From Hyphochytrium catenoides (Eukaryota > Sar > Hyphochytriomycetes > Hyphochytriales > Hyphochytriaceae), in the NCBI GenBank assembly GCA_900088475.1, contig FLMG01004481.1, positions 1 to 24,386 on the forward strand: a stretch of DNA of 24,386 nucleotides, given 5' to 3'. A program made the position numbers and the translations under genes. Positions 464-24,350 of this stretch are shown piece after piece; the stretch's first letter is position 1; each line of letters begins with the position of its first letter. The notes below the pieces were generated by a model that saw only the letters and a program-made list of their open reading frames with translations, did no database searches and was not told the origin of the DNA.

Positions 464-1909
464 CAGAAAGGGAGAGAGAAAGAGAGACAAGGGCATTGGG
501 AGACTAAGAGCGGATGGTCTCTATAAACCTTAGGATTCAACTGCAAAAAGGGAGCAACTCTGTGCTGGCGTGCTGCCACATCTCCTCCTTGCGCTCTTCT
601 CATCATGACGATCATCGACGACCTCCATACTTTACCGTGAGTCGTAGTGCTCTGGAGAGGACAGTGGGAGAGAGAGGCAAGAGAGAGAAAGACATAGCAA
701 AATGACAGAGAGAAGAAGAGGGCAATTGAGGACGTCTTTGCGGGGAGAGTGGCAAGGAAAGATATCCATCATGATGCTCTCACCTCCAGTGCTCTGCCGC
801 TAGGCTCCTCCTCCGAAGGGCGGCTGCTGCCCTGCTGCCGGGGAACTGACGTTTCATCCCCTTCCTTCCCTCTTCTCCAACTTCCTCTCGCTTTTGTTTC
901 CTCTTCTCGACCGTCTGTCCTTCTTAGCAACTCTTCGAGCAATATTAGGACTACTGGACGTCGTCGAAGTCGAGGGGGCGAGAGATAAGGAGGAAGGAGG
1001 AGAGAGAAAGGGGAAAGAGGAGGGAAAAGAGAACCCGGAGAGAGAAAAAAAGAGAGAGAAAGCGCAATTTGCCCGATGGCCTCAGCTCACTACTATCGTG
1101 GCTGAGAAAAGCCAAGAAGGTCTGTGGCCCGGCGCAAGTGATCTTGTCTGTCGCCCACATCCAGTGCGGAGAGGACGCCTCTGCATCGGAAGCTGGTAGA
1201 CACCGTCCGTTTCCCGGCCTTTCTCTTACTGCGGTCTCTCCTCTCCCGCTCTTTCTTTCTCTCTGTCTCTCAAACTCTCTCTCTGTCTCCCTTTCTGGCT
1301 TACAGAACGAACAGGTTCTTACACAGCCCAGTCTGATGGTATCCGTCGCCTCTGGCTTTTGATGTATCCTATCGCCTCCCTTTCTCTCTCTCTCTCTCTC
1401 ATGTCTCTCTCTCTGCGCCTCATTAGCTTGCCTATCTCCCCGTTCCAGCTCTGTCTCTGCTCCACCTACACTCTTTTGAATGGATGCGAAAAGGGTGCAT
1501 TTCTAGAAACAATATAGCGAAGGAATCCCCAATGTGTCTCTCTGTATCTCTTTCCACCCTTTTCAACCCTTCAATAGTAGAGGACCCTTGGGGTTCACTC
1601 CTCGGTGGTCTACCCTTCTTCTTCTACTCTCTCTCTCTCTCTCTCTTCTTCTCTTTTCCTTGCTATCTCTCTCTCCCGCCCCTCCGCCGCAAACTTTGGT
1701 TTTGCTCTCCGCTGTGTTCCTGTCTCCCACGAGGGGCTGGCCGTCTCCTCCGAAGTCCTCCTCACTTTGCAATCACCAGGCTATCGAACAAGCACTACCA
1801 CTTTGTTTTGACCAAGACAAGCAGGAAGCCTCCCGTCGGCTATCCCTGGTTCTCCCTCTCTCGCTAGGACAGTTATCCTTCTCTTCGTCTCTCCTGATCT
1901 AGAGATACC
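1..1909. other. Low-complexity DNA upstream of the GH6 gene; no firm gene
   Basis: Begins with a CT tract (1-54). Purine-rich (GA) stretches follow at about 340-495, 660-720 and 960-1060, then CT-rich DNA at 1230-1300, 1380-1420 and 1628-1672. Open frames here are mostly Leu/Ser or Arg/Glu translations of the repeats. A short plus-strand stretch at 1069-1198 (LSSLLSWLRKAKKVCGPAQV and on) is less repetitive and could be an exon, but it has no recognised similarity. The GH6 promoter and 5' UTR must lie in the right half. Confidence 0.6.
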
Positions 1910-3109
1910 ATGGTTCGCGTCACGTCTATGATAATGCAAGGCCTGCTTATGGCAGGCCTCACACTGCTTGCCACTAAAACCGAAGCCGAGAGCCTCTTTA
2001 CACTGAGAAGGATCACCTCTGCCTCTTCCAACCCATATGAAGGCAAGCAGCAGTACGTCAACCCACGCTTTGTCAAGCACGTAGACAGCTCCATCGCCAA
2101 GGTTCCTGGCAAGGCTGATGTCCTGCGCAAGGTGCAGATTCTTCCTGTGGCCGTATGGCTGGACAACATTGCCGCCACCACGCAGATCAGAAGCTACCTG
2201 GAAGAGGCTAGACGGCAGCAGAACAACGCTGGAAAGCCCGTGGTTGTCACCTTTGTTATTTATGATCTTCCAAACCGCGACTGCGCTGCTGCTGCCTCCA
2301 ATGGAGAGCTTCTGGTCGCACAGAACGGCCTAGCGCGGTACAAGGCAGAGTACATTGATGTCATTGCCAGAGAGTTCGCCGCCTATCCTGACATCTCTAT
2401 AGCAGGCATCGTGGAGCCTGATTCTCTTCCAAACCTGGTAACCAACCTGGCAACGCCTAAGTGTGCAGAGGCTAGCCAAGCTTACAGAGATGGTGTTGTG
2501 TACACGCTGCAGAAGCTTTCTGCTCTTCCCCACGTCACTCTGTACCTTGATGCCGCTCATGAAGGCTGGCTTGGATGGCCAGACAACCGTAGTGCCTTCG
2601 CCAGACTCGTTGCTGACCTGCTTCAGAGGGCAGGAGGTCCACAGGTTATCCGCGGCTTCGCTACTAACGTTGCCAACTATAACAGCATCTCCACCTTTAC
2701 CAACGGACAGCCTGCTTATCCTATTGACTTTAACCCTGCTTGGAACGAGACCTCCTATGTCCAGCTCTTGAAGGAGTCTATGGACGCTGCGGGAATGCCT
2801 AACATGCGGTTCATCGTTGACACAAGTCGCCAGAGAGTCCTCCCTGTAGAGAACAAGAAGCTCCAGGAGTGGTGCAACATCAAGGGCGCTGGGCTGGGCC
2901 TTCGTCCTACGACTAACCCTCATCCGTTGATGGACGCGTACGTCTGGGTGAAGATCCCTGGAGAGAGTGATGGCACTTCAGATAAGAATGCAGCGCGCTT
3001 TGACTTCCACTGCGCCTCAGCAGATAGCTACCAGCCTTCTCCTGAGGCTGGAGAGTGGAACCATGAGTACTTTATGGGACTGGTGGAGAGAGCGACTCCT
3101 CCTCTTTAG
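1910..3109 (+). CDS. Secreted GH6 cellulase (cellobiohydrolase/endoglucanase), single domain
   Basis: Intronless 399-aa ORF whose ATG sits in an ACCATGG context. Residues 1-26 look like a signal peptide: basic start, hydrophobic core MAGLTLLA, likely cleavage after TEA. The rest is a full glycoside hydrolase family 6 catalytic domain, which cleaves beta-1,4-glucan (cellulose) by inversion. Visible motifs are NPYEG..YVNP (41-52), IYDLPNRDCAA with Y118/D124/C125, VEPDSLPNLV with D171 as the expected general acid, TPKC (C185), the LDAAHEGWLGWP block, ATNVANYN, EWCN (C322), WVKIPGESDGTSD with D354, and FHCA (C368). By analogy with fungal Cel6A, C125-C185 and C322-C368 would pair as disulfides. 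The Cys usually found in the GECDG loop is Ser353 here. There is no carbohydrate-binding module and no linker. Family assignment is secure. Whether it acts as an exo- or endo-enzyme cannot be told from this reading. Confidence 0.95.
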   Translation: MVRVTSMIMQGLLMAGLTLLATKTEAESLFTLRRITSASSNPYEGKQQYVNPRFVKHVDSSIAKVPGKADVLRKVQILPVAVWLDNIAATTQIRSYLEEARRQQNNAGKPVVVTFVIYDLPNRDCAAAASNGELLVAQNGLARYKAEYIDVIAREFAAYPDISIAGIVEPDSLPNLVTNLATPKCAEASQAYRDGVVYTLQKLSALPHVTLYLDAAHEGWLGWPDNRSAFARLVADLLQRAGGPQVIRGFATNVANYNSISTFTNGQPAYPIDFNPAWNETSYVQLLKESMDAAGMPNMRFIVDTSRQRVLPVENKKLQEWCNIKGAGLGLRPTTNPHPLMDAYVWVKIPGESDGTSDKNAARFDFHCASADSYQPSPEAGEWNHEYFMGLVERATPPL

Positions 3110-4369: not shown

Positions 4370-4500
4370 CTCTCTCTCTCTTTCTCTCTCTTTCTTTCCC
4401 TGTCTCTCTTTCTCTCCTCTTTCTTTCTCTCTTTCTCTCTCTTTCTTTCTCTCTTTCTCTCTCTCTCTTTCTCTCTCTGTCTCTGTCTCTGTCTCTGTCT
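4370..4500 (+). repeat. Compound CT / TTTC microsatellite ending in a (TCTCTG)n run
   Basis: CT dinucleotides interrupted every few units by TTTC, finishing with four tandem copies of TCTCTG or its permutation GTCTCT before TTGG at 4500. Confidence 0.85.
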
Positions 4501-4797: not shown

Positions 4798-5610
4798 TTC
4801 CACTAATATCTTTCAATTAAAATTATCTGTAAAATGCTACGCTAAGGAATTACTCTGTCTCTCACAATTTGCTTTCAGTTCTACTCTGTCTTGTAACTTT
4901 TGTATTCCTCCTTTTGTAAGGTGCCTTGCTCTGTCTTGCGCTGTCTCCACCTCACTCTTTGCCTCTTTTTTTCTCTTTCTCCAGTTTCTTGCTCTTTCTG
5001 AAGCTCGATTTCTGAAGCCTTGATCACCGATAGATCTTCAGAGCTCTGCCGCTTGCCTGAGCTTCAGATGGGCAGGGTCTGCATAGAGAGAGACAGGGAA
5101 AGCCGATTATTGCTGTCTCTATCTTCAGAAGTCGCCGTTCTCTAGTCAGTTTGCTCGCTGGTCTGGCGCAATTATTGCCAGCAAAGTCCTTGGAAACCGC
5201 CCAGTTCAGTAGCATCTATCTATTAACTCTCTCTCTCTCTCTCTCTCTCTCTTGCCAACGTTGAGGAGACTCACAAGACTCTTTCTTCCCTGCCAACACG
5301 TATCGGAGGACAATCTGTTTCTTTTTGGCTTCTGCCGCGGGACTTCCAGGCCAAAACCAGGATGAGAGAAGGCAGGCTTGTTGCCTACGTGGGTCGATAT
5401 ACTGTCAGCGGTTGGATAAGAATCTGATTGCTTATAAACACTTGGAAAAGGGGGAGAGATAAGAGGAGAGAGAGAGCAAAAGAGAGACACAGCTCTTCCC
5501 TTCTCCTTCCCCTTACGTTATCACCTGTTCAACTCTCTCCTCTCTGAATCCATCCAAGCCCCTCCGTCCGCCTCCAATAACAGGGGCGAGCGAGACATCC
5601 TCTGCTTCCA

Positions 5611-5902
5611 ATGACAGAGTATGAAGTTGTATGGGGCAATCAAGATCTCGGTTGCACTCTAAGAGAAGGAGGACCGGGAGGATGCCCCATCGTTGGCCGC
5701 ATCACGCGCAGAGATGCTGTTGCAGCTACGTCAGGAGTCAGAAGCGGGCACTTGCTGGTCGCCGTCAATGGCAGAGAGACGTCCCGGATTGGCTATGATA
5801 GCACGGTGGATCTGTTGAAGAATCTTCCTCGGCCAGGTAAGAAGCAGGTCCTGTGGCCCTTAGGATAATGGTCCCGACTTCTTTCTCCCTCCTGTTCTAG
5901 TG

Positions 5903-6286: not shown

Positions 6287-8525
6287 TGCCGTCATCCTCC
6301 CTTAACTGCTGGCTGTTTCTTTAGGTGTCTTGAGATTTTTAGCTCCAGCAGGCGATGCTCCTCCAGGCAAAGCTGTCCCTCGGGACGAGTACACAGTAGT
6401 CTGGGAAGAGGGAAAGCTGGGCATTGTGTTCACGCCAGGAGGACAAGAAGTGCTAAACCTTCCTTGTGTCAAGCAGCTGACAGGTGAGGGGAAGATGAGG
6501 AGAAGGGGAAAGAGAGAGTGAGAGAGAGAGAGCAGAGTATGGTGTGAAGAGCTTGCGAATGGATGGGGCAAGGCATGACAAGCAGAGCAAGAGAACGCGG
6601 ACGAGGCGCCAGGCTGGTAAAGAGAAAGACGTCGTAGGACAGGTGTACGATGAGACGAGATGCCGAGCACGAACCTGTCATTTCATCCTCTATTGATCAC
6701 GTGGCTTTGTTTTCCTGCGTTAGCCGAACCTGACCCATGTGTCTTCCCTTTGTCGCCACTGGCTCTTTCTCTCTCTCTCTCTCCATTCGCAGGACACGGT
6801 CGCTCTGGCAGCATCGCTAGGGTAAAGCTAGGGGACTTGCTAATCTCAGTGAATCAGAACCAAGCCAGCAGGCTGGGCTACCAAGGCAGCATAGACTTGC
6901 TCAAAGTAGTTGGCAAGCCTTGCATCTTGCGCTTCAAGGTCCAGAAGTCCTTGCGCTCTGCGTCCGCAGTCACAGGGAGAATAGTCCCAGAAAATAGCAT
7001 TATTCCTCCGCGTTTCTCTGCCCCTCCAACAGTTCAAAGAGGAGGAAAGTATGGGGGCTCCAGCGCAAGAGAAGGAGAAGAGTACGACGTGGTGTGGAGA
7101 GAGGGTAACCTGGGCCTCACGCTGAAGCCCAACATCAGCAATATTCCTTTCATTAGCCGTAAGAGTGGCAACGGAGACGGAGCAGAAGGCTTTGAACTTG
7201 CTCATGAAGGCGATGAACTCATAGCAGTGAATGGAATCCGGCCCTCTCGGGACTTCTATCAGACAATGGCGATGGTCAAGTCGGCCAAGCAGTCAGGGAA
7301 GCCTGTCGTACTAAGATTTAAAGCTGGAGTAGGGGCCTCTGAGAGGCAAGGAAGTGACTCGTACCCTCGTTCTTCGCGAGGCTCGGGCTCTTCAGAAGAT
7401 TGGAAAGGCTCATCCACGTCAACAGGAGCTCTTCCCCTTCCATCCTCGGGTGCTGTGGTTGCAGGCGGCCCACAAAGTAGTATAGCCAAGCGCTTTGCGG
7501 CTGGCGTTGTACCAGACGCTCGGCTCCCTCCTCCTCCACCAGTGATTCCTCTCCCTCCTCCTGGCATGAACCCTGAAGTCTACGAGTATTTCCTTCACCA
7601 GCAAAGAGAGGCAGAAAAGAGGCTTGCACAGTATGATGAGGAACTACGCAGAGCAGCGCAAGAGAGGGAGAGATTGGCCAAGCTTCTCCAGGAGAAACAG
7701 CGGCAGGTAGCAGAGGCAGAAGATGACTATGGAAAGCAAGTGTTGGACACAGCCAAAAACATTCTCTCCTCTCCTTCTCGCATGTCAATGCTTAGCCCTG
7801 GCATTCCACCACAGGCGTCCACTCCTCTTTCTCCAGCCTCCTTAAGCAACTACGGCTCTCCTTCTGTCTCATCACCGAAGAGAAAAGGATCTGTCCCTAA
7901 GACCAGAGACCCGAAGAAGAAGGCTCTCATCAATGAGCTTCACGCTATTCTAGGCCTTCCAAAGCTAGGGCAGAAGAAGAAGTGCTCACAATGTGGGAAA
8001 GAAGAGACAGAGGAAGAGCCACTAGAGCAGGATGAGTCCGATATGCGCTGGTACTGCACAAAGTGTTTAGACGAATACTATGCAGAGCAGAGAGAGTTAG
8101 AAGAGCAATGGAGAAAGGAGCAAGAAGAGCTAGCAAGAAAGCAGAGAGAAGAGTACGAGGCTGCTTTAGCGCAAGAAGAACAAGAGGAAGCACAAGAAGC
8201 AGAAGAGGAAGTACTTCGTGAGCAAAAGCAGAAAGAGGTGGAAGATCTACAAAAGAAGCATCTTCTGGCTAAGATTGCCGCTGAGAACGCGGCGATGCAG
8301 CGGCGTATAGAGCAGGAGGAGGAGGCATTGAGCCGAGTAACCTCGGCGGCAGGAAAGATCCATGAGAACCAGTCAGAACTTACTGATGAACAGATTCTAC
8401 AACTCTCCTCTGCTATAGAGAAGGCGGAGGAGGAAGAGTTTAGTGAGGTTAGTGAGGACGAAGTAGACAGTGAAGCAGAGGGAGAGGGAGGAGAAGGAGA
8501 GCAGGATGACTCGGTTTGGCTATGA
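5611..8525 (+). CDS. Triple-PDZ scaffold protein with C4 zinc-binding-like motif and coiled coils
   Basis: Exons 5611-5836, 6325-6483 and 6793-8525 (introns GTAAGA..TTTAG and GTGAGG..CGCAG, both phase 1) join to a 705-aa protein. Three PDZ-like domains start with the same signature: YEVVW..DLGCTL (about 3-82), YTVVW..KLGIVF (98-178) and YDVVW..NLGLTL (226-307). Each has a GdxLxxVN turn and ends in hxRF. Splicing rebuilds the last strand of PDZ1 (RPG/VLRF) and the middle of PDZ2 (QLTG/HGRSG), which supports the exon model. A proline-rich stretch (about 372-386) is followed by a charged coiled coil, a C526-x2-C529..C550-x2-C553 motif (CSQC..WYCTKC) likely to bind zinc, a second long Glu/Lys coiled coil, and a very acidic C-terminus ending DSVWL. 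Probably a cytoplasmic scaffold. PDZ domains bind C-terminal peptides; partners are unknown and I recognise no named orthologue. Confidence 0.88.
6233..6287 (+). repeat. CT microsatellite in intron 1 of the PDZ gene
   Basis: Pure or nearly pure (CT)n just upstream of the TTTAG acceptor; a similar tract lies at 5911-5941 near the 5' part of the same intron. Confidence 0.85.
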
Positions 8526-11578: not shown

Positions 11579-14500
11579 ATGAGTGGCACAGCGGCTCAAG
11601 GATTCTTCACCTCGCCCTCATCCCCGCCTAGTGGTGGAGAGGATCGATGGAATGTAGAGAGTTTCGATCCAAGCGGTGCCAACACTGGTAAGTACAGCTT
11701 ATCACCCGATCTTGTGACCTTCTATCGTGTAAGACTGCTATATCGGCAGAAGTCTCATGGAGGGCTTGGCCTGGGGAGCGGTCGGACTTGATGTCTCGTG
11801 CAGATCGCGCCCTCCTCTCACTCTCCGCTCTGGCTGACACCGTGCAGACACCCTATGGCATGGGTGCGCGAGGGCCCACCATAGCAAGCGGAAAAGGTGA
11901 TGGAGCCGTACTTTTCTTTCTCTCGTTTTTCCTCTGTTTCCTCAACTGGCATGACTCTCTTACACTTGCCCTGGCCTGCGCAAACATCTTCTCCCCCTCT
12001 CGCTCTCTCGTTGCGCTAACCGTAATGCTCCTTGAATAGAAGAAAATAAGCAGGACGAGCTAGAGCGAACCGAGCAGTATAGCGAGATATCTATAGCAAA
12101 CCGCAACCTCATGCACATTCGCGTCCACCTTCCAAATGGCGCTAGTATCTATGAGGATATTGATCCTAGAACGGACACTGTGGCTGATCTGAAGGCCAGA
12201 GTGTGCAAGCGAGAGAGGTGGCTGAAGGCACCCAGCCAGGTCAAGGGCTTCGACGTTGCTCTTTCGTGTCCAACGCCCTATTTTCTTACTCCATCTTGAC
12301 ATACTCCTTGGCTTGCTCTTGTCTGAATACACTCTCTCTTTCTCTTTGTTTCTTGTCTCTCTCTCGTTCCCTGTGTGTCTCTTCTTTCTCCTGCCCTGTA
12401 ACATCGCCAGCTAATCGTGTGTTATTGAAGTCTTGACTTCTGTATCTATTCCTATCGCCAAACCTTTGGCATTCCTTCGTGTCTCTTCCCCACAGCTGAT
12501 ACTTTTTTTTGCTGTGCCCTGTACCTTATGGTTCACAGCTGCTAGTAGTATACAATGGCCTACCAGTCCAGGATGACTGGCTTGTCTACGACTGCGGGGT
12601 TCAGAAGGATGGCACAGTCCATCTCGTGTTCCGAAGCGCGTGGAGGGGTGGGAAGGGTTACCCAGGAGAGAGAGTTGGTGCAAACAGCAGTTTTTCTCTT
12701 CGAACACCGTCCTTCGATGTCGGTGACGAGTCTCTCGTAGGCCCGGATGTGGGTGCCGCAGGAACCAGTTTCTCTCTCTCTCGTATCTCACTCAACGAAG
12801 GCCCTTCTTTTTATCCGGGAGGAGGGAGAGATGGAGAAGATAGCACTTTCCTAGCGGAGGAGAGACGGTCTTTACTTCCTGAGGCCTCAAACTGGACAGC
12901 TGCAAGCTGGGGCGGGAGAGGTTGGGCGGAAGAGGTTGCCTTTCACGAGATCTTGAAGAAGGAGATGGAGATGGTGTCACAAGAAGGAGGAGGAGAAGCA
13001 GAGGAGAGGCCCATTACGGAGAATCTTCTTTCTTTCTATCAGGAGATTTGTGATAAACAGATCAGTCAACTAAGAGAGGCAGCAACAGGCAAGAAGGCAG
13101 TCAAGAAGCTAAAAGAGCTTGTTCAAGAGAGAAACACATGGGACCTCTTAGCCCGGCTGGAGGATCTTGCCCTTAGACAACAGAAGAGATCTTCCGCCAT
13201 GGAAGAAGAAGAGGAAGAAGAAGTCATGCTTAAAGGGACAGAACAGGATGCTCTTGACCGTCTATTGACTCGAAGCGAGCTTCTGCAACTGTACACCACT
13301 GTCCTTCAATGGCTTGAGAGCATAGCAGCGGAACAGGTCGAGTACAAGGAACTAGGTACGTAATTCTGTTCCTTGTCCGTCCCTCGTCCTTTCACCGTCG
13401 TGAGAGTGCACCTTCTCTCTTCAGGGACTGCACCTCTTGCTTCGATTTATGTGAGTCCTGTTCTTCGTAGTCCTCCTGCTTCCCTCTTGCACACATACTG
13501 CACCTCTGACAATTTTGTATCAACCACAGACATGGACGGTAGCTCCAGTCTCTCGGCTTGGCCTGAGACTTTACGTGTCTTAAAATCCAACAGAGCCAGT
13601 GGAGGAATGATTAAAGCTTTGGATCCTGATGCTCCTACTAGGGATGGTGGACGCCTTGCCCCAGATGATGACGAGAGCGAAGAAGAGCTTCTGAGGACGC
13701 TCTGGTCTTTTCTTAGGGCAGGAGAGGTGCAAAGGGCCATCCTATACTGCAAAGAAAGAGGTCAACACTGGAGGGCAGCCACTCTAGGTGGAGGCAACCC
13801 TTGCGCGGCGCAGATGGGGCTGCACGACGAGAACGGATGTCAGGTGGTGTTCGAAGACCAACCGGAAGATGTTCAGCTCCTCATCTCCCAAGGAGTAGTT
13901 CCTCCTTCCTGTTCTATGCTACTGAAGCGTTGGGGCAACCCTTATCGATTTCTTTGGAAGAGCTTGTGCTGGCGGTTCTCTTTGAGAGGAGCCAAGGAGA
14001 AGCGAGTCACAGGATCCGCTTCTACACTTTCGGAGGAGTACGAGAGACTAATCTACGCCGCCTTATCGTGCAACCTTCGTATTCTACTTTCTTCTCCTCT
14101 ATCTAGCACTTGGGAAGACCACTGTTGGGCGCTCTTTCGCTGCGCACTTGAGAGAAAGCTTGATGAACACCTTTGGAACCATTGGAAGCTTAAGGGCTCG
14201 CTTTCTCTCTTCCGAGCAGGACCCAAGTCTTCGTCGTCTGCTCAAGAGGTCCTAAGAAACACTGAAGATGCCCTACATCTCACTCCAGAGAGTATATTCC
14301 AGCGACTTAGTGACGACGCAAACGAAGAGCTGAGGAAAGAAGGTCAAAGCTTACTTAGAAAGGTACAAGGCGCTCTCATCCAAGGTCAGAGAGAGGAAAT
14401 GATACTTGATATCGTCTATCCAGCCATTGCAACGATAGATCCAGTTCTCTCCGAGGAAGGAGCTCTGGAAAGATCTAGAAAGAGACAGCGACCTGTTGAT

Positions 14501-16167
14501 CATGGCATCTGGGAGCTCTCTCTTGACGAAGAGCGAGAGGAAGTGGGGCTTCTCTCTTCGTCATCTGACTCCGGCTCTCTCACCGCCGGCACACTTCGCT
14601 TCTTGGCGCATCTCTGTCTATATGTCCGACCCCTGCCTGATGGCTCCAACCCTTGCGACGAGGCTGTCTGGCAGGTTGTCAAGGCGTACATTAGACACCT
14701 CGTAAAACAGGGACAGACTGACCTCGTTGCGTTCTATGTGGCTACTCTGCCCTCTCAAGGGAGGGTGCATGTATATTCCCAGGTCTGCGCCCGTATCCTC
14801 TCTTCCTCATCTAGGCAGCGATGTTTAGAGCTAGCCAACGCCTTTTTCACTCCTGACGAGATAGCGCAAATCACAAAGATGGCGGTAGAAGAGGTGCGAC
14901 TGGGCGAGGGAGGAGCGGGAGACAATGCCAGGAGAAAAGAGGAGGACAGGCCACGCCAAGGCATAACGAGAGAGGAAGAGGACATCGCTGTGGATGAAGT
15001 GAAACTTTCTTCCCTCGAGTGGCTCATCGCCTTCCCAGAGCATAGGGAAGAAGCCCTACTGCAAAGCAATCTTCTCATTCGGGATCTCATCCGCGAGGAT
15101 AAACTGTCTTCTGCCATCAAGACTCTTGAGATGCTACCTCCAGACTCATTAGATATAATAAGCGCACACTCCCAAGCCAGGAGAGACAGAGGTCTGGACG
15201 AAGAGAGAGACTCTTTATCTCGTGGAGCCATCAAGGAGCATCTCTGCTGGCAAGCTTATCTCCATGCTACACAGAAATACCTTTCTTGGCACTCTTTCAT
15301 TGCTCTTGCGAAGCAGCGGAGAGGGGGAATGGTGAGAATCGACGACAGGGAACAGGCTGCAGAGTTATTGCGACAGAGTGTTCAGGAGACCGTGACAGCA
15401 ATCAAGGCAGTGCTGGAGTTTGAGAGTGGCTGGTTAGTAGGAGTTGGGCTTGCAGAGCGAGAAGAGGATGACTGGGCGTCAGATTTGAGGAGACTCTGCC
15501 TGCCACCGCTTGTCAACTATCTCCACCAGGTGAGAGCGGTTCAGGCTGTCTTTGGATCCCTTTGTGTCCATTGATGGCTTCTCAATGTGGCTTTTCATAT
15601 CCAGCAGCTCCTTACTCGTAGCGCTTTCACTGCCTCTTTTAGCTTTTTAGCTTCTCACATGCTCTTCATAGCGCTCTTTCTGTCCGTTGCCACTGACTAA
15701 TCCTCCTCTTACTGTCTTAGCCCTTGGGTGTGTATCTATACGTTAGTCGCCGCTGGACCCTTCGCTTTCTTCGTTTATCAACTTCTTCCTTCTTCCATCT
15801 CATTAAACTGGGAGGCAAGACGTTGATCTTTATGTCTTTTTAAGTTCCCCCCTCCTTATCCTTCTCGATTCCCAATGCCGACCCTGTGTGCTGACATCTT
15901 GCTTTGTCACTCTATGCCCTTGGTCCCTATCAGGTCTATGTTGAGAGTGCAACGCTTCTTCTTTCCATAGATTCGTCAAATGCAGTCTTTTGTGAACTCG
16001 CTCTCTCATTCTTCAAAAGTAGCCTGAAGGTCGCGGATCTCGTTGCTTCTTCTCAGTGGAGAATTGACGTGGCAATGGCACCGGAGGAAGTGAGGAAGCT
16101 TTTAGACTCCCTCACAGTCAGCGCAATGGCGCTGTTGCACTTAGAGAACAGCATACAGTTGGCTTAA
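11579..16167 (+). CDS. NUP107: Nup107/Nup84-family nuclear pore protein with N-terminal ubiquitin-like domain
   Basis: Exons 11579-11687, 11804-11896, 12040-12239, 12539-13355, 13530-15529 and 15934-16167 splice to 1150 aa. The C-terminal two thirds carry Nup107 family landmarks: QWLES, WPETLRVLKS, ALDPDAPTRD, LLRTLWSFLRAGEVQRAILYCKERGQHWRAATL (in pieces), and the terminal KVADLVASS..PEEVRKLLDSL block. Nup107 is a helical scaffold subunit of the Y complex of the nuclear pore. Residues 92-166 (MHIRVHLPNG..DLKAR, LLVVYNG, VQKDGTVHLVFR) align along the whole length of ubiquitin and end in RGG (170-172). Exon 4 contains both the second half of this module and the first Nup107 helices, so the fusion does not depend on a splice guess. 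Intron 4 has an alternative acceptor at 13423-13424 that adds 35 aa in frame (1185 aa). Family call firm; exact intron 3 and 4 borders less so. Confidence 0.88.
12040..12656 (+). other. Ubiquitin-like domain segment inside the Nup107 gene (exons 3-4)
   Basis: The domain begins at Met92 of the spliced protein and is split by intron 3 (12240-12538), which falls after Q134. Equivalent positions to ubiquitin are: MHIRV for MQIFV, ADLKARV for ENVKAKI, LLVVYNG for RLIFAG (V138 at the Ile44 position), VQKDGTVHLVFR for IQKESTLHLVLR (H162 and V164 at His68 and Val70), then AWRGG for LRGG with two extra residues. A Lys follows the Gly-Gly. Recognised by eye from pattern, not by a search. Confidence 0.75.
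13425..13450 (+). other. Candidate 26-nt cassette microexon or alternative 3' splice site in Nup107 intron 4
   Basis: Within the intron there is a good acceptor (CTCTCTTCAG ending at 13424) and, 26 nt later, a consensus donor GTGAGT (13451). Using both would insert 26 nt, shift the frame and reach a stop within about 20 codons of exon 5. Using only the acceptor keeps the frame and adds 35 residues. Predicted from splice consensus only. Confidence 0.4.
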
Positions 16168-17341: not shown

Positions 17342-17409
<68 letters not shown>

Positions 17410-17655
17410 TCATTGTTTCTCTAGGATTGTCCCTCTCAGTGGCCCTTCTCTTTCTCTCTATCACCCTTTTTCTCTGTCTCTACCGTGCTCTTTCTTTCCA
17501 GTGTGTATTCTCTCTCTTCCCTCTCCTGTTCATCTCTCCCTCTCTCTCTTTCTCTCTCTCTCTTTCTCACACTCTCTCTTTCTCTTTCTCTCCTTTTCTC
17601 TCCGCTTCCGCGTTCCTCTCTCACTCGTTTCCCTCTCTCTCTCTCTCCCTCCCTC
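17341..17655 (+). repeat. 300-bp CT-rich block upstream of the Bfr1-like gene
   Basis: Starts with about 68 bp of nearly pure (CT)n with GTCTCT interruptions, then continues as CT/TTTC-rich DNA to about 17655. Frames through it are Ser/Leu repeats. Confidence 0.8.
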
Positions 17656-18005
17656 ACTCCGGGACAGTGGTGCATCTCATCTCTCTCCACTGTTTTCTCT
17701 AAAGCTCAGTCAGACTGAGTCACCTTCGGATCTGAACTGTCTCTACTTTGTCTCTTCTTTTGGGAGAGACAGCGATAGCGTTTTCCTCGCTACGATTGAG
17801 ACAACAGCACAAGGTACGGCTGAGCCTTCACTTATAACGGACGCTAATCTACCGAGAAGAGAGAGAGAGAGAAAGAGAGGACTCTTCGTCTGGCGTTCAG
17901 GTTCGCGCTAAGTGCACCGAGTCTTCACTCTCACTCCGCGTTTCTCTCCTTTTGTCTCCCCCTTTCTGACCTGGTCAAGGACTTGCCCTAGAACATTTAA
18001 GCGTC

Positions 18006-21922: not shown

Positions 21923-24350
21923 TTATCGAGGGGCTGGAACCTCCATCGCAAGATACCTGTGAGCCAGCATACTTCTGTCTGCACAGAGAAACTCCGTCCA
22001 GTTCCGGATGAATCCTCTGTCAAAGGGGTTCAGATAGAAGCCGTTTTGATCCTTCATATACTCGTACTTGTCCTTGTTAAATGTCTCGTTCACCGTGATG
22101 TTTCTTGATATGTTGCTCGTCTGGATAATCAGGAGGATGAGCGTCGGGATGCCGAAGATAACGGAGAGAAGGAGAAGCCCTATCTGTGCAGCGATGCGGC
22201 ACTCAGAGAGAGCGCACCACTCTACGAACTCGCTATCAGAAAGAGGAGAGAGGATGGTCTGGCTGAGAAGAGAGCCGTAAAGAGACTGAGATGAAGAGAG
22301 AGGTTTCTCCCGAACGTTCTGAAAGAAAACAGCGATGAGAGAAGATATCATCAGCGCCATCTCCACCACGAAGAGAAAGCAGAAGAAGACAAATTGCCGA
22401 TGATTGAAGAGGCCAACGCAATTGCTGATCCATCTAGTTGAGAGCAGACCGTGAGCAGGATTCCCAAAAGATTATGCGCGCCAGTCCCGAGACGGTAGCA
22501 CAGCGCAGAAGGGAAAGGAGAAGCAGGTCAGTTCTATGTGGGAGCAAGAAGAATATATACAGGGTGGAGACCTCGTCAGGGGCCAAGAGAAGCACACTGC
22601 CAGATTGGCTATGGCAGAGCAGCAGATGGCAGAGGGGAGTCAAAGGGTAGATGCAATAGATAAATGAGCTCAAAGAGGACACTTCCTGTCGTTTGAAGGC
22701 ATCAAGGGCTCTGGAATATAAAGAGAGAAGGTGCAGCATTACTTACGGGCAATGGTGGTCGAAGCGGTGCACACATCGTCCACAGGAGTGACAATGCTTC
22801 ATTCTAGCAGTCTTCTTTATCCTGCAACTCGGACAAGGAAGCGGTCCCTCCTCGGACGCCAATAACTCTTCAAAGACCAACGGATCGCCTTTGGGAATGT
22901 AGCCTGGGCTCGTTAGCCATACCGACGTATAGCTCCCGGCTACCATCAGAGAGAGACACAGGGCTAGAATCTCAACCGTGTTCAAAGAGAGCAAGAGAGT
23001 CCCTTCCAGCACACTAGCGAGGAAAGGCAGCACAAATACAAGCCAGAGAAAGACTCCCAGGGAGAAGAATGAGAAGAAGAAAAGGACTGTTAGTCTCTTC
23101 TCTGAAGCTTCAGCCATCAACCTATCACTTCTGCCGTTCTTCAGAGCCTGCGTTGTGCTCTCAGATCCTGAAGCTTTACTTAAGTCTAGCGCTGTCCTCC
23201 CCAAGCTGTCCCTTATATGCACAGGAGCGCCCTCTAGCACTAACTGTTTGGCGAGAAAAGCATCGCCTAAGGTACAGGCGAGCATCAGCGGTGTCTGACC
23301 CTATGGCAGCAGAGGCAGAAGTGGAGAGAGGAAGATCGTAAGGTAGTGGAGGACAATCGGGAGCAACCGCGTGAAAGGGGATTCATAGAGGGCAAAGAGC
23401 TAAACGGCTGAGTCATTATGGCCTCCGAGAGCAAAGGAGAATGCTGGCAAAGAGTGCGAGGGACACATTGAAAGCAGGATACAGGCAACTAGAAAGTACG
23501 ATGGCGAATCAAGGCTCATAAAAGAGAACTTGCAGCACGGGGATACCTGCCGTACAAGCTCTCTTCCCCCACAGATTTAACCGTCTCTCTCCTCTTCCTC
23601 TCTCTTTCATTTGTCTCTCTCTTCTCTCTCTCTCTTCTCTTTATTGCGATTTTATTTGTGCTGCTAAGCCTACCTGCGCGTCCTGCAATGTCTGATCTGC
23701 CCCTGATGCCACGAGAAGCATGGCAGTGTAATGAAAGCCCTCGAAGACGGCCCAGTGAAGAGGCGTGGCTCCTCTCTTGTCTTGCATGTTGACATCTGCC
23801 CCATAGCGGACAAGGACAGCTATAATGGCTGGGTTATCAGAACTGGAAGCGTAGTGAAGCGGTGTCATGCCAATCGAGTCCGTAGACGAGTGAGACGCTC
23901 CTGCCTGGAGATAGCCAGCGTGATGAGGAATCAGAAAAGAGATGAGTAAACGAAGAGAGAAGGTGGAGAGAGAAAATAAAGGGAACTAAAGGAGAGAGAG
24001 TTAGAAGTAAATAAAGAGAGAGAGAGCGAGGGGAGAGAGAGCCAGAGAGGAAAAGAGAGAGAGAAGAGGAGAGAGAGTCCTCAATGACCGCAGTCAGTCA
24101 AGGTCCAGGTCCAGGGCGAGAGGAGAGGGTAAAAATAAGCTTAGACAAGCGATGAGTTAACATACTTCCAGCAGCAGTCTGCAGAGAGAGAAGGAGGAGC
24201 AGAGCATGAGCGCAGTGGCTGCTCCTTTCCCATAATTAGCCTTCGCTTCCAGAACAGCCTTCAGCTCATCAGAGGACAGAACCTCCTTGGCCAGGGAGAC
24301 TAGATACCGTGCGACACTCTGCTGGTCATAGTAGCACGCTAGCTGCAAAC
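21923..24350 (-). CDS. Ankyrin-repeat DHHC protein S-palmitoyltransferase (5' end outside window)
   Basis: Minus-strand exons 24350-24166, 23904-23674, 23300-22747 and 22433-21923 splice in frame to 492 visible residues; the N-terminus lies beyond the right edge. Ankyrin repeats cross the junctions perfectly (LLLE/AGASH, DAQ/GQTPLMLAC; MTPLHYAS, GATPLHWAV, LGRTALDLS). Two membrane segments follow (LTVLFFFSFFSLGVF.., ILALCLSLMVAGSY). Then comes the cysteine-rich catalytic domain CPSCRIKKTARMKHCHSC..CVHRFDHHCPW, whose DHHCP/W is rebuilt by splicing, then NCVGLFNHRQF and two more membrane segments. DHHC enzymes transfer palmitate to cysteines of target proteins at Golgi or plasma membranes. The architecture resembles Akr1/HIP14 (ZDHHC17), but only four membrane segments are visible where that group usually has six. 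The long tail has NITVNETFN near the usual TTxE position. Confidence 0.92.
23944..24075 (+). repeat. GA-rich tract inside an intron of the DHHC gene
   Basis: About 130 bp of GAGA-type repeats on the plus strand, which is a CT tract in the direction of transcription of this minus-strand gene. It lies between the donor at 24165 and the acceptor at 23905 and may act as an extended polypyrimidine tract. Confidence 0.8.

Follow-up and report, generated by a model that had tools for sequence, protein, structure and literature searches.

An integral ubiquitin-like domain predicted in the N-terminal tail of a Nup107 from Hyphochytrium catenoides, with a counterpart in an oomycete

The stretch of DNA analysed here (the window), 24,386 nucleotides of contig FLMG01004481.1 from Hyphochytrium catenoides, contains on its forward strand a gene (positions 11579-16167) that is predicted to encode a true Nup107, a member of this family of Y-complex scaffold subunits, with a ubiquitin-like domain (Ubl) as an integral part of its N-terminal tail. 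Nup107 belongs to the Y complex, which forms part of the outer rings of the nuclear pore. As few parts of the pore are as well conserved as this complex, a new domain on one of its scaffold proteins was unexpected. We consider it nearly certain that this fusion of a Ubl to Nup107 is a real architecture, and a comparison with an oomycete Nup107 suggests that it probably predates the split from the oomycete lineage.

The spliced model consists of six exons (Table 1) separated by introns that are all of the GT-AG type, and its translation runs through 1150 codons with 0 internal stops. In this product, the Pfam family Nup84_Nup100 (PF04121) matched residues 326-1119 (E=5.3e-124; 415.4 bits, for a curated cut-off of 22.5) over positions 2-698 of the 717 of its profile, and the ubiquitin family (PF00240) matched residues 111-166 (E=1e-7; 32.0 bits, for a curated cut-off of 25.4). 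An earlier, sequence-only reading of this DNA had placed a Ubl at residues 92-166 ahead of a Nup107 body, and these two matches above cut-off bear it out, with the limits that it gave. Searched alone against the PDB library, the Ubl matched single ubiquitin chains (E of about 2e-6 to 2e-5), and it aligned with a profile of the ubiquitin family of its own genome with a probability of 95% (hhalign); a search of NCBIfam gave no match. An extension of about 90 residues lies ahead of the Ubl, which is joined to the Nup107 body by a linker of about 130-160 residues that is rich in Gly, Ser and Glu (Gly at 20 of 129 positions). The part of exon 4 that codes for this linker includes a 14-base tandem repeat in two copies (12910-12938). 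PF04121 gave one match in the whole genome (42.5 Mb, in an assembly of 1105 contigs), which also encodes a Nup96 (E=2.8e-43) and a Nucleoporin_C protein (PF03177; one exon, E=1.9e-8), indicating that the setting of the gene is an ordinary pore scaffold.

The two parts of the protein meet on exon 4, which holds, in one frame (open from 12500 to 13363), 32 residues from the C-terminal end of the Ubl (about 75 residues in total) together with the first Nup107 helices, just as had been read from the sequence beforehand, again with the right limits. When exon 4 was searched alone, Nup107 was recognised at exon residues 192-266 (31.0 bits) and the ubiquitin family at exon residues 3-32 (14.3 bits, E=0.037), the latter score staying under the cut-off because the domain is only partly present on this exon. 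The donor of intron 3, which interrupts the Ubl, is weak (GTCAAG). The examined stretch contains 456 donor/acceptor pairs with GT or GC donors, of which 74 keep the frame open once introns of less than 60 bases are dropped. With the own-genome ubiquitin profile, the modelled junction 12240/12539 was the best of those with a GT donor (23.8 bits) and was itself outscored by the GC-donor pair 12247/12546 (26.2 bits). Each of the 41 frame-keeping pairs with an acceptor at 12539-12572 passed the HMMER inclusion threshold, and none of the 33 (0/33) with acceptors from 12605 on did, showing that the Ubl signal rests mainly on exon 4 and does not in itself decide between donors. Thus, the ubiquitin-like stretch stays joined to Nup107 for any donor, unless the acceptor lies past the Ubl. 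As to base composition, introns 2-5 of this gene are 67-71% pyrimidine, and intron 1 is 50%.

Searches for homologues, each scoring 7990-7992 candidates, returned five different Nup107s in all (P0001 to P0005), two of which, P0002 and P0003, start with the body or close to it and are uninformative on an N-terminal domain. Nearest among the five were two oomycete proteins, the 1023-residue P0004 of Aphanomyces stellatus and P0003 of Thraustotheca clavata, which starts with the body. The body of the window Nup107 clustered with these two with a support of 99/99 in a tree of six sequences, in which the program flagged the residue make-up of the window protein as unusual. In the assembly no light-harvesting family was matched, which together with this tree points to a probably non-photosynthetic stramenopile near the oomycetes; a PUFA synthase gave no match either, in a search that may have been insensitive for this genome, as even a ketosynthase was matched in 11 of 14 controls but not here. 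Residues 84-160 of P0004 aligned with nearly the full window Ubl with a Smith-Waterman score of 93, for shuffled sequences with a mean of 26.9 and a maximum of 52 (0 of 2000 shuffles reached the score). P0004 was the only one of the five relatives with such a match; there was none in P0001, P0002, P0003 or P0005, and in P0001 and P0005, which have long N-termini, the Ubl profiles gave no credible match. The same domain order, which the earlier reading had proposed to look for in related genomes, thus exists in Aphanomyces, and the fusion is not the oddity of one genome. Residues 1-90 of the window protein showed no significant similarity to the N-terminus of P0004 (score 23, reached by 1435 of 2000 shuffles). 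Further loci were sought by pattern scans of genome contigs and viral contigs, and no relative was among their 31 and 66 pattern matches. The oomycete domain used as a query in the Hyphochytrium genome gave no match either, a result that is uninformative since the domain of the gene described here is split by an intron.

The relationship between the two domains became apparent through the window copy, which is close to ubiquitin on one side (z=19 for ubiquitin of its own genome) and to the P0004 domain on the other (z=16). Compared directly, the P0004 domain and ubiquitin gave z=2.2, a value reached by 15 of 500 shuffles, and the best of six other Ubl stretches from the Hyphochytrium genome reached z=4.6 with the P0004 domain, below the z=16 obtained with the window Ubl. 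It is through the window gene that a Ubl, eroded and missed by Pfam, can be recognised in the oomycete, and this transitive similarity is most simply explained by a fusion older than the split of the two lineages. Identity between the window protein and P0004 amounted to 21/76 aligned residues in the Ubl (27.6%), 219/674 in the Nup107 core (32.5%) and 17/86 in the linker (19.8%), where 86 of 129 positions could be aligned. By these alignments, conservation of the Ubl comes close to that of the body and exceeds that of the linker. That the two domains share their ancestry appears to us highly likely.

Comparisons with proteins of solved structure gave the same division of the protein. A profile made from the window protein, P0004 and P0003 matched human NUP107 (5a9q, the sequence of which is also present in 7r5j), Arabidopsis NUP107 (9sob), Nup84 chains and two chains named nuclear pore complex protein (6lk8 and 9hcj); the comparison considered the best stretch per chain, with a second stretch counted for 9hcj. 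In these nucleoporin chains the best stretches lie in the body, and the Ubl columns instead match ubiquitin and parkin, as did a two-sequence profile of the Ubl (window and P0004) searched against the PDB library. The models 7r5j (human) and 9sob (Arabidopsis) are both named in PMC12626886. The window protein thus resembles Nup107 and Nup84 in a body that covers almost the whole PF04121 profile and differs from them in the Ubl that precedes it. The statement of the earlier reading that the Nup107s known to it have no domain of this kind fits the solved chains of human and Arabidopsis NUP107 and of Nup84 and also P0001 and P0005, but not Aphanomyces. Parkin, the nearest named PDB match besides ubiquitin, is similar in carrying a Ubl inside a larger protein. 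Rad23, Dsk2 and USP14 are also non-conjugated proteins with integral ubiquitin-like domains. In such proteins the Ubl is found on a shuttle, a ligase or a protease, whereas here it is on a pore scaffold, and the oomycete copy differs from them in lacking H68 and V70 of the Ile44 patch. Elsewhere in the Hyphochytrium genome, internal Ubl domains are encoded by open frames at the loci L003 (580 residues, with two such domains) and L004 (601 residues).

The residues common to the window Ubl and the Aphanomyces domain were compared in one MAFFT alignment, in which the Aphanomyces helix has a five-residue insertion, so that positions from about 26 to 35 are uncertain; for positions 44-70, other alignments gave the same result. 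P8, V44, W54, C59 and G60 (ubiquitin numbering), among others, are common to both proteins and differ from ubiquitin, which has G47 and D58 in common with them. The best-shared surface is W148-x3-D152-C153-G154 (ubiquitin positions 54-60) and not the full Ile44 patch. Position 54 lies on the surface in ubiquitin, and the retention of a tryptophan there in proteins as distant as these two suggests a face used for binding.

Considering these results, we lean towards a Nup107 with an ancestral, retained and uncleaved Ubl that serves as a docking module. A single fusion of a Ubl to Nup107 in a common ancestor would have been kept since; the Ubl would stay attached, neither cleaved nor conjugated, and its long flexible linker would display many copies of it around the rings of the pore, where it may dock through the W148-x3-D152-C153-G154 face to a neighbouring nucleoporin or to a protein of the ubiquitin, SUMO or proteasome system. 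It is likely that the Ubl remains uncleaved, while docking through this particular face has, in our estimate, slightly less than an even chance. Docking of a factor of the SUMO, ubiquitin or proteasome type would be the most attractive reading, and a structural role would be nearly as likely. The earlier reading had speculated on a similar role, in which the Ubl could recruit ubiquitin-binding or SUMO-system factors. Such factors are found at the Y complex in other organisms: according to passages of PMC4339684, the yeast Slx5/Slx8 ligase copurifies with Nup84, and SUMO proteases are tethered with the help of the Nup84 complex in yeast and of the Nup107/160 complex in mammals.

Several observations weigh against an ancestral docking Ubl. 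The domain has been seen in only two proteins, and one of them is difficult to recognise: the P0004 domain alone was not matched by Pfam, it reached 3% on the own-genome ubiquitin-family profile (hhalign; the maximum of 30 shuffles was 1%), and the own-genome ubiquitin profile scored 2.6 bits on P0004, in the right place and below threshold. The Ile44 patch (L8, I44, H68 and V70) is retained only in part in the window, with P, V, H and V at these positions, and hardly at all in Aphanomyces, with P, V, Q and H. An AlphaFold model of P0004 computed from five sequences gave a predicted local distance difference test score (pLDDT) below 50 for residues 1-285, and the domain was modelled with helices and without strands. 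In a second model the domain had a pLDDT of about 20-40 and missed the last strand, with an overall mean of 59.4 versus 63.3 before. Last, proteasomes tethered at the pore of Chlamydomonas are held at Rpn9, and PMC6969544, as far as its consulted passages go, does not show them held by a Ubl.

Both AlphaFold models concern the relative only. From residue 287 onwards the first was helical throughout, mostly with a pLDDT of 70-90 and with some weaker stretches. The second, for which a row for exon 4 of the window was added to the input and P0002 was omitted, placed strands at residues 85-91 and 97-103, a helix at 109-120, short strands at 135-136 and 139-140 and a helix at 143-147. This is the order of elements in ubiquitin minus the last strand, and we take it as a mere hint in favour of a beta-grasp fold.

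The alternative that survives best, quite possible although clearly short of even, is that the Ubl is purely structural and lineage-specific, packing on the Y-complex stalk or on Nup93 or Nup96 and playing no part in ubiquitin signalling. It would account for a best-shared face that differs from the full Ile44 patch and for an Aphanomyces domain that has drifted beyond recognition by Pfam. A precedent may exist in Arabidopsis, where NUP107 has an additional lineage-specific domain that was proposed to link parts of the scaffold and was modelled in contact with NUP93A/B, as described in sections of PMC12626886; the chain of 9sob differs from the protein described here in that it aligns from its residue 85 and in the body only. 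A structural role fits less well with a linker as long and as poorly conserved (19.8%, with 86/129 positions aligned) as would be expected for a mobile module, and with a window copy that is still so near to ubiquitin (z=19).

If the Ubl was instead a cleavable N-terminal fusion, as in the precursors of ribosomal proteins, a protease would cut after R170-G171-G172, and the Arg-Gly-Gly found at residues 170-172, followed by Lys, does come just past the domain. Ubiquitin fusions to the ribosomal proteins eS31 and eL40 resemble the window protein in that a ubiquitin fold lies N-terminal to an unrelated essential protein, but in these fusions ubiquitin stands at the very N-terminus and ends with LRLRGG for cleavage, whereas the window Ubl follows an extension of about 90 residues and has an end that is not conserved: its Gly-Gly comes two residues too late after the last strand, and Aphanomyces has none. 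These two features make cleavage unlikely, and in a linker so rich in glycine (20/129) a Gly-Gly is likely to occur by chance. Altogether, we regard a cleavable fusion as improbable. By eye, an open reading frame at locus L006 of the Hyphochytrium genome reads as a ubiquitin-eS31 fusion.

An independent gain of the two domains by the Nup107 genes of Aphanomyces and Hyphochytrium is very improbable. Only two sequences are at hand, and the oomycete domain is itself barely ubiquitin-like (z=2.2), which would be compatible with separate origins; both domains nevertheless share residues absent from ubiquitin (P8, V44, W54, C59 and G60 among them) and the same place ahead of the body, and the window Ubl (z=16) is a closer match to the oomycete domain than ubiquitin is, or than any of the six further Ubl stretches tested from the Hyphochytrium genome (z=4.6 at best). 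Least probable of all is a gene-model artefact in which a neighbouring small ubiquitin-like gene and Nup107 were mis-spliced together, for although the third donor is weak (GTCAAG), other junctions keep the frame, one of them with a higher ubiquitin score, and the start codon is only predicted, one uninterrupted reading frame in exon 4 covers both the last part of the Ubl and the beginning of Nup107, and the same order is found in an independently annotated oomycete protein.

Our preferred interpretation, an old Ubl retained on Nup107, could mean that the pore is hard-wired to the ubiquitin/SUMO machinery in this protist lineage. Other eukaryotes make this link by separate proteins, such as SUMO proteases and the yeast Slx5/Slx8 ligase (passages of PMC4339684) or the pore proteasomes of Chlamydomonas (passages of PMC6969544). 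In its boldest form, which we consider unlikely, an ancestral fusion in the oomycete/hyphochytrid lineage would make each Y complex show a permanent, uncleavable ubiquitin-like signal, turning the pore ring into a built-in platform where proteasomes, p97 or enzymes of the SUMO or ubiquitin pathways could land; that platform would then sit in the scaffold itself, in place of separate tethers. The window copy is also useful in that it is near enough to ubiquitin to explain an eroded oomycete N-terminus that is invisible to Pfam. Among the titles listed by searches of the open-access literature, none deals with a Ubl on Nup107 or with the domains of oomycete nucleoporins; in PMC2951903 the word ubiquitin occurs 0 times, and in PMC8421043 it occurs twice, concerning Mex67. 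A scaffold nucleoporin with a Ubl may thus be an architecture found nowhere described and common to at least two lineages, and annotations elsewhere may contain it without naming it.

Table 1. Exons of the Nup107 gene and parts of its Ubl-coding region in the window.
Feature	Position	Strand	Description
Exon 1	11579..11687	+	Predicted start codon and N-terminal extension, residues 1-36; donor GTAAGT; weakly supported
Exon 2	11804..11896	+	N-terminal extension, residues 37-67; open frame links exons 1 and 3; weakly supported
Exon 3	12040..12239	+	Residues 68-134: remaining N-terminal extension, then first part of the Ubl, which starts at Met92
Intron 3	12240..12538	+	Phase 0; interrupts the Ubl; 71% C+T
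Exon 4	12539..13355	+	Remainder of the Ubl (135-166), then the linker (167 to about 325) and the first Nup107 helices (326-406); both families on this exon alone
Ubl C-terminal part	12539..12634	+	Residues 135-166; W148, D152, C153 and G154 common to Aphanomyces
Exon 5	13530..15529	+	Main Nup107 body
Exon 6	15934..16167	+	C-terminal Nup107 helices and stop codon

The window also contains other coding regions. On the forward strand, a single open frame at 1898-3109 encodes a glycosyl hydrolase of family 6, of the cellulase type (PF01341, E=6e-104), a stretch at 5581-5865 codes for a PDZ domain (PF00595, 24.8 bits, above cut-off), and a long frame at 6654-8525 has a weak PDZ match (13.4 bits, below cut-off). 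On the reverse strand, exons at 21923-23985 resemble an ankyrin-repeat DHHC palmitoyltransferase, with three stretches matched. Introns and intergenic stretches of the window are rich in CT/GA simple repeats, for example at 4370-4500 and 17342-17659.

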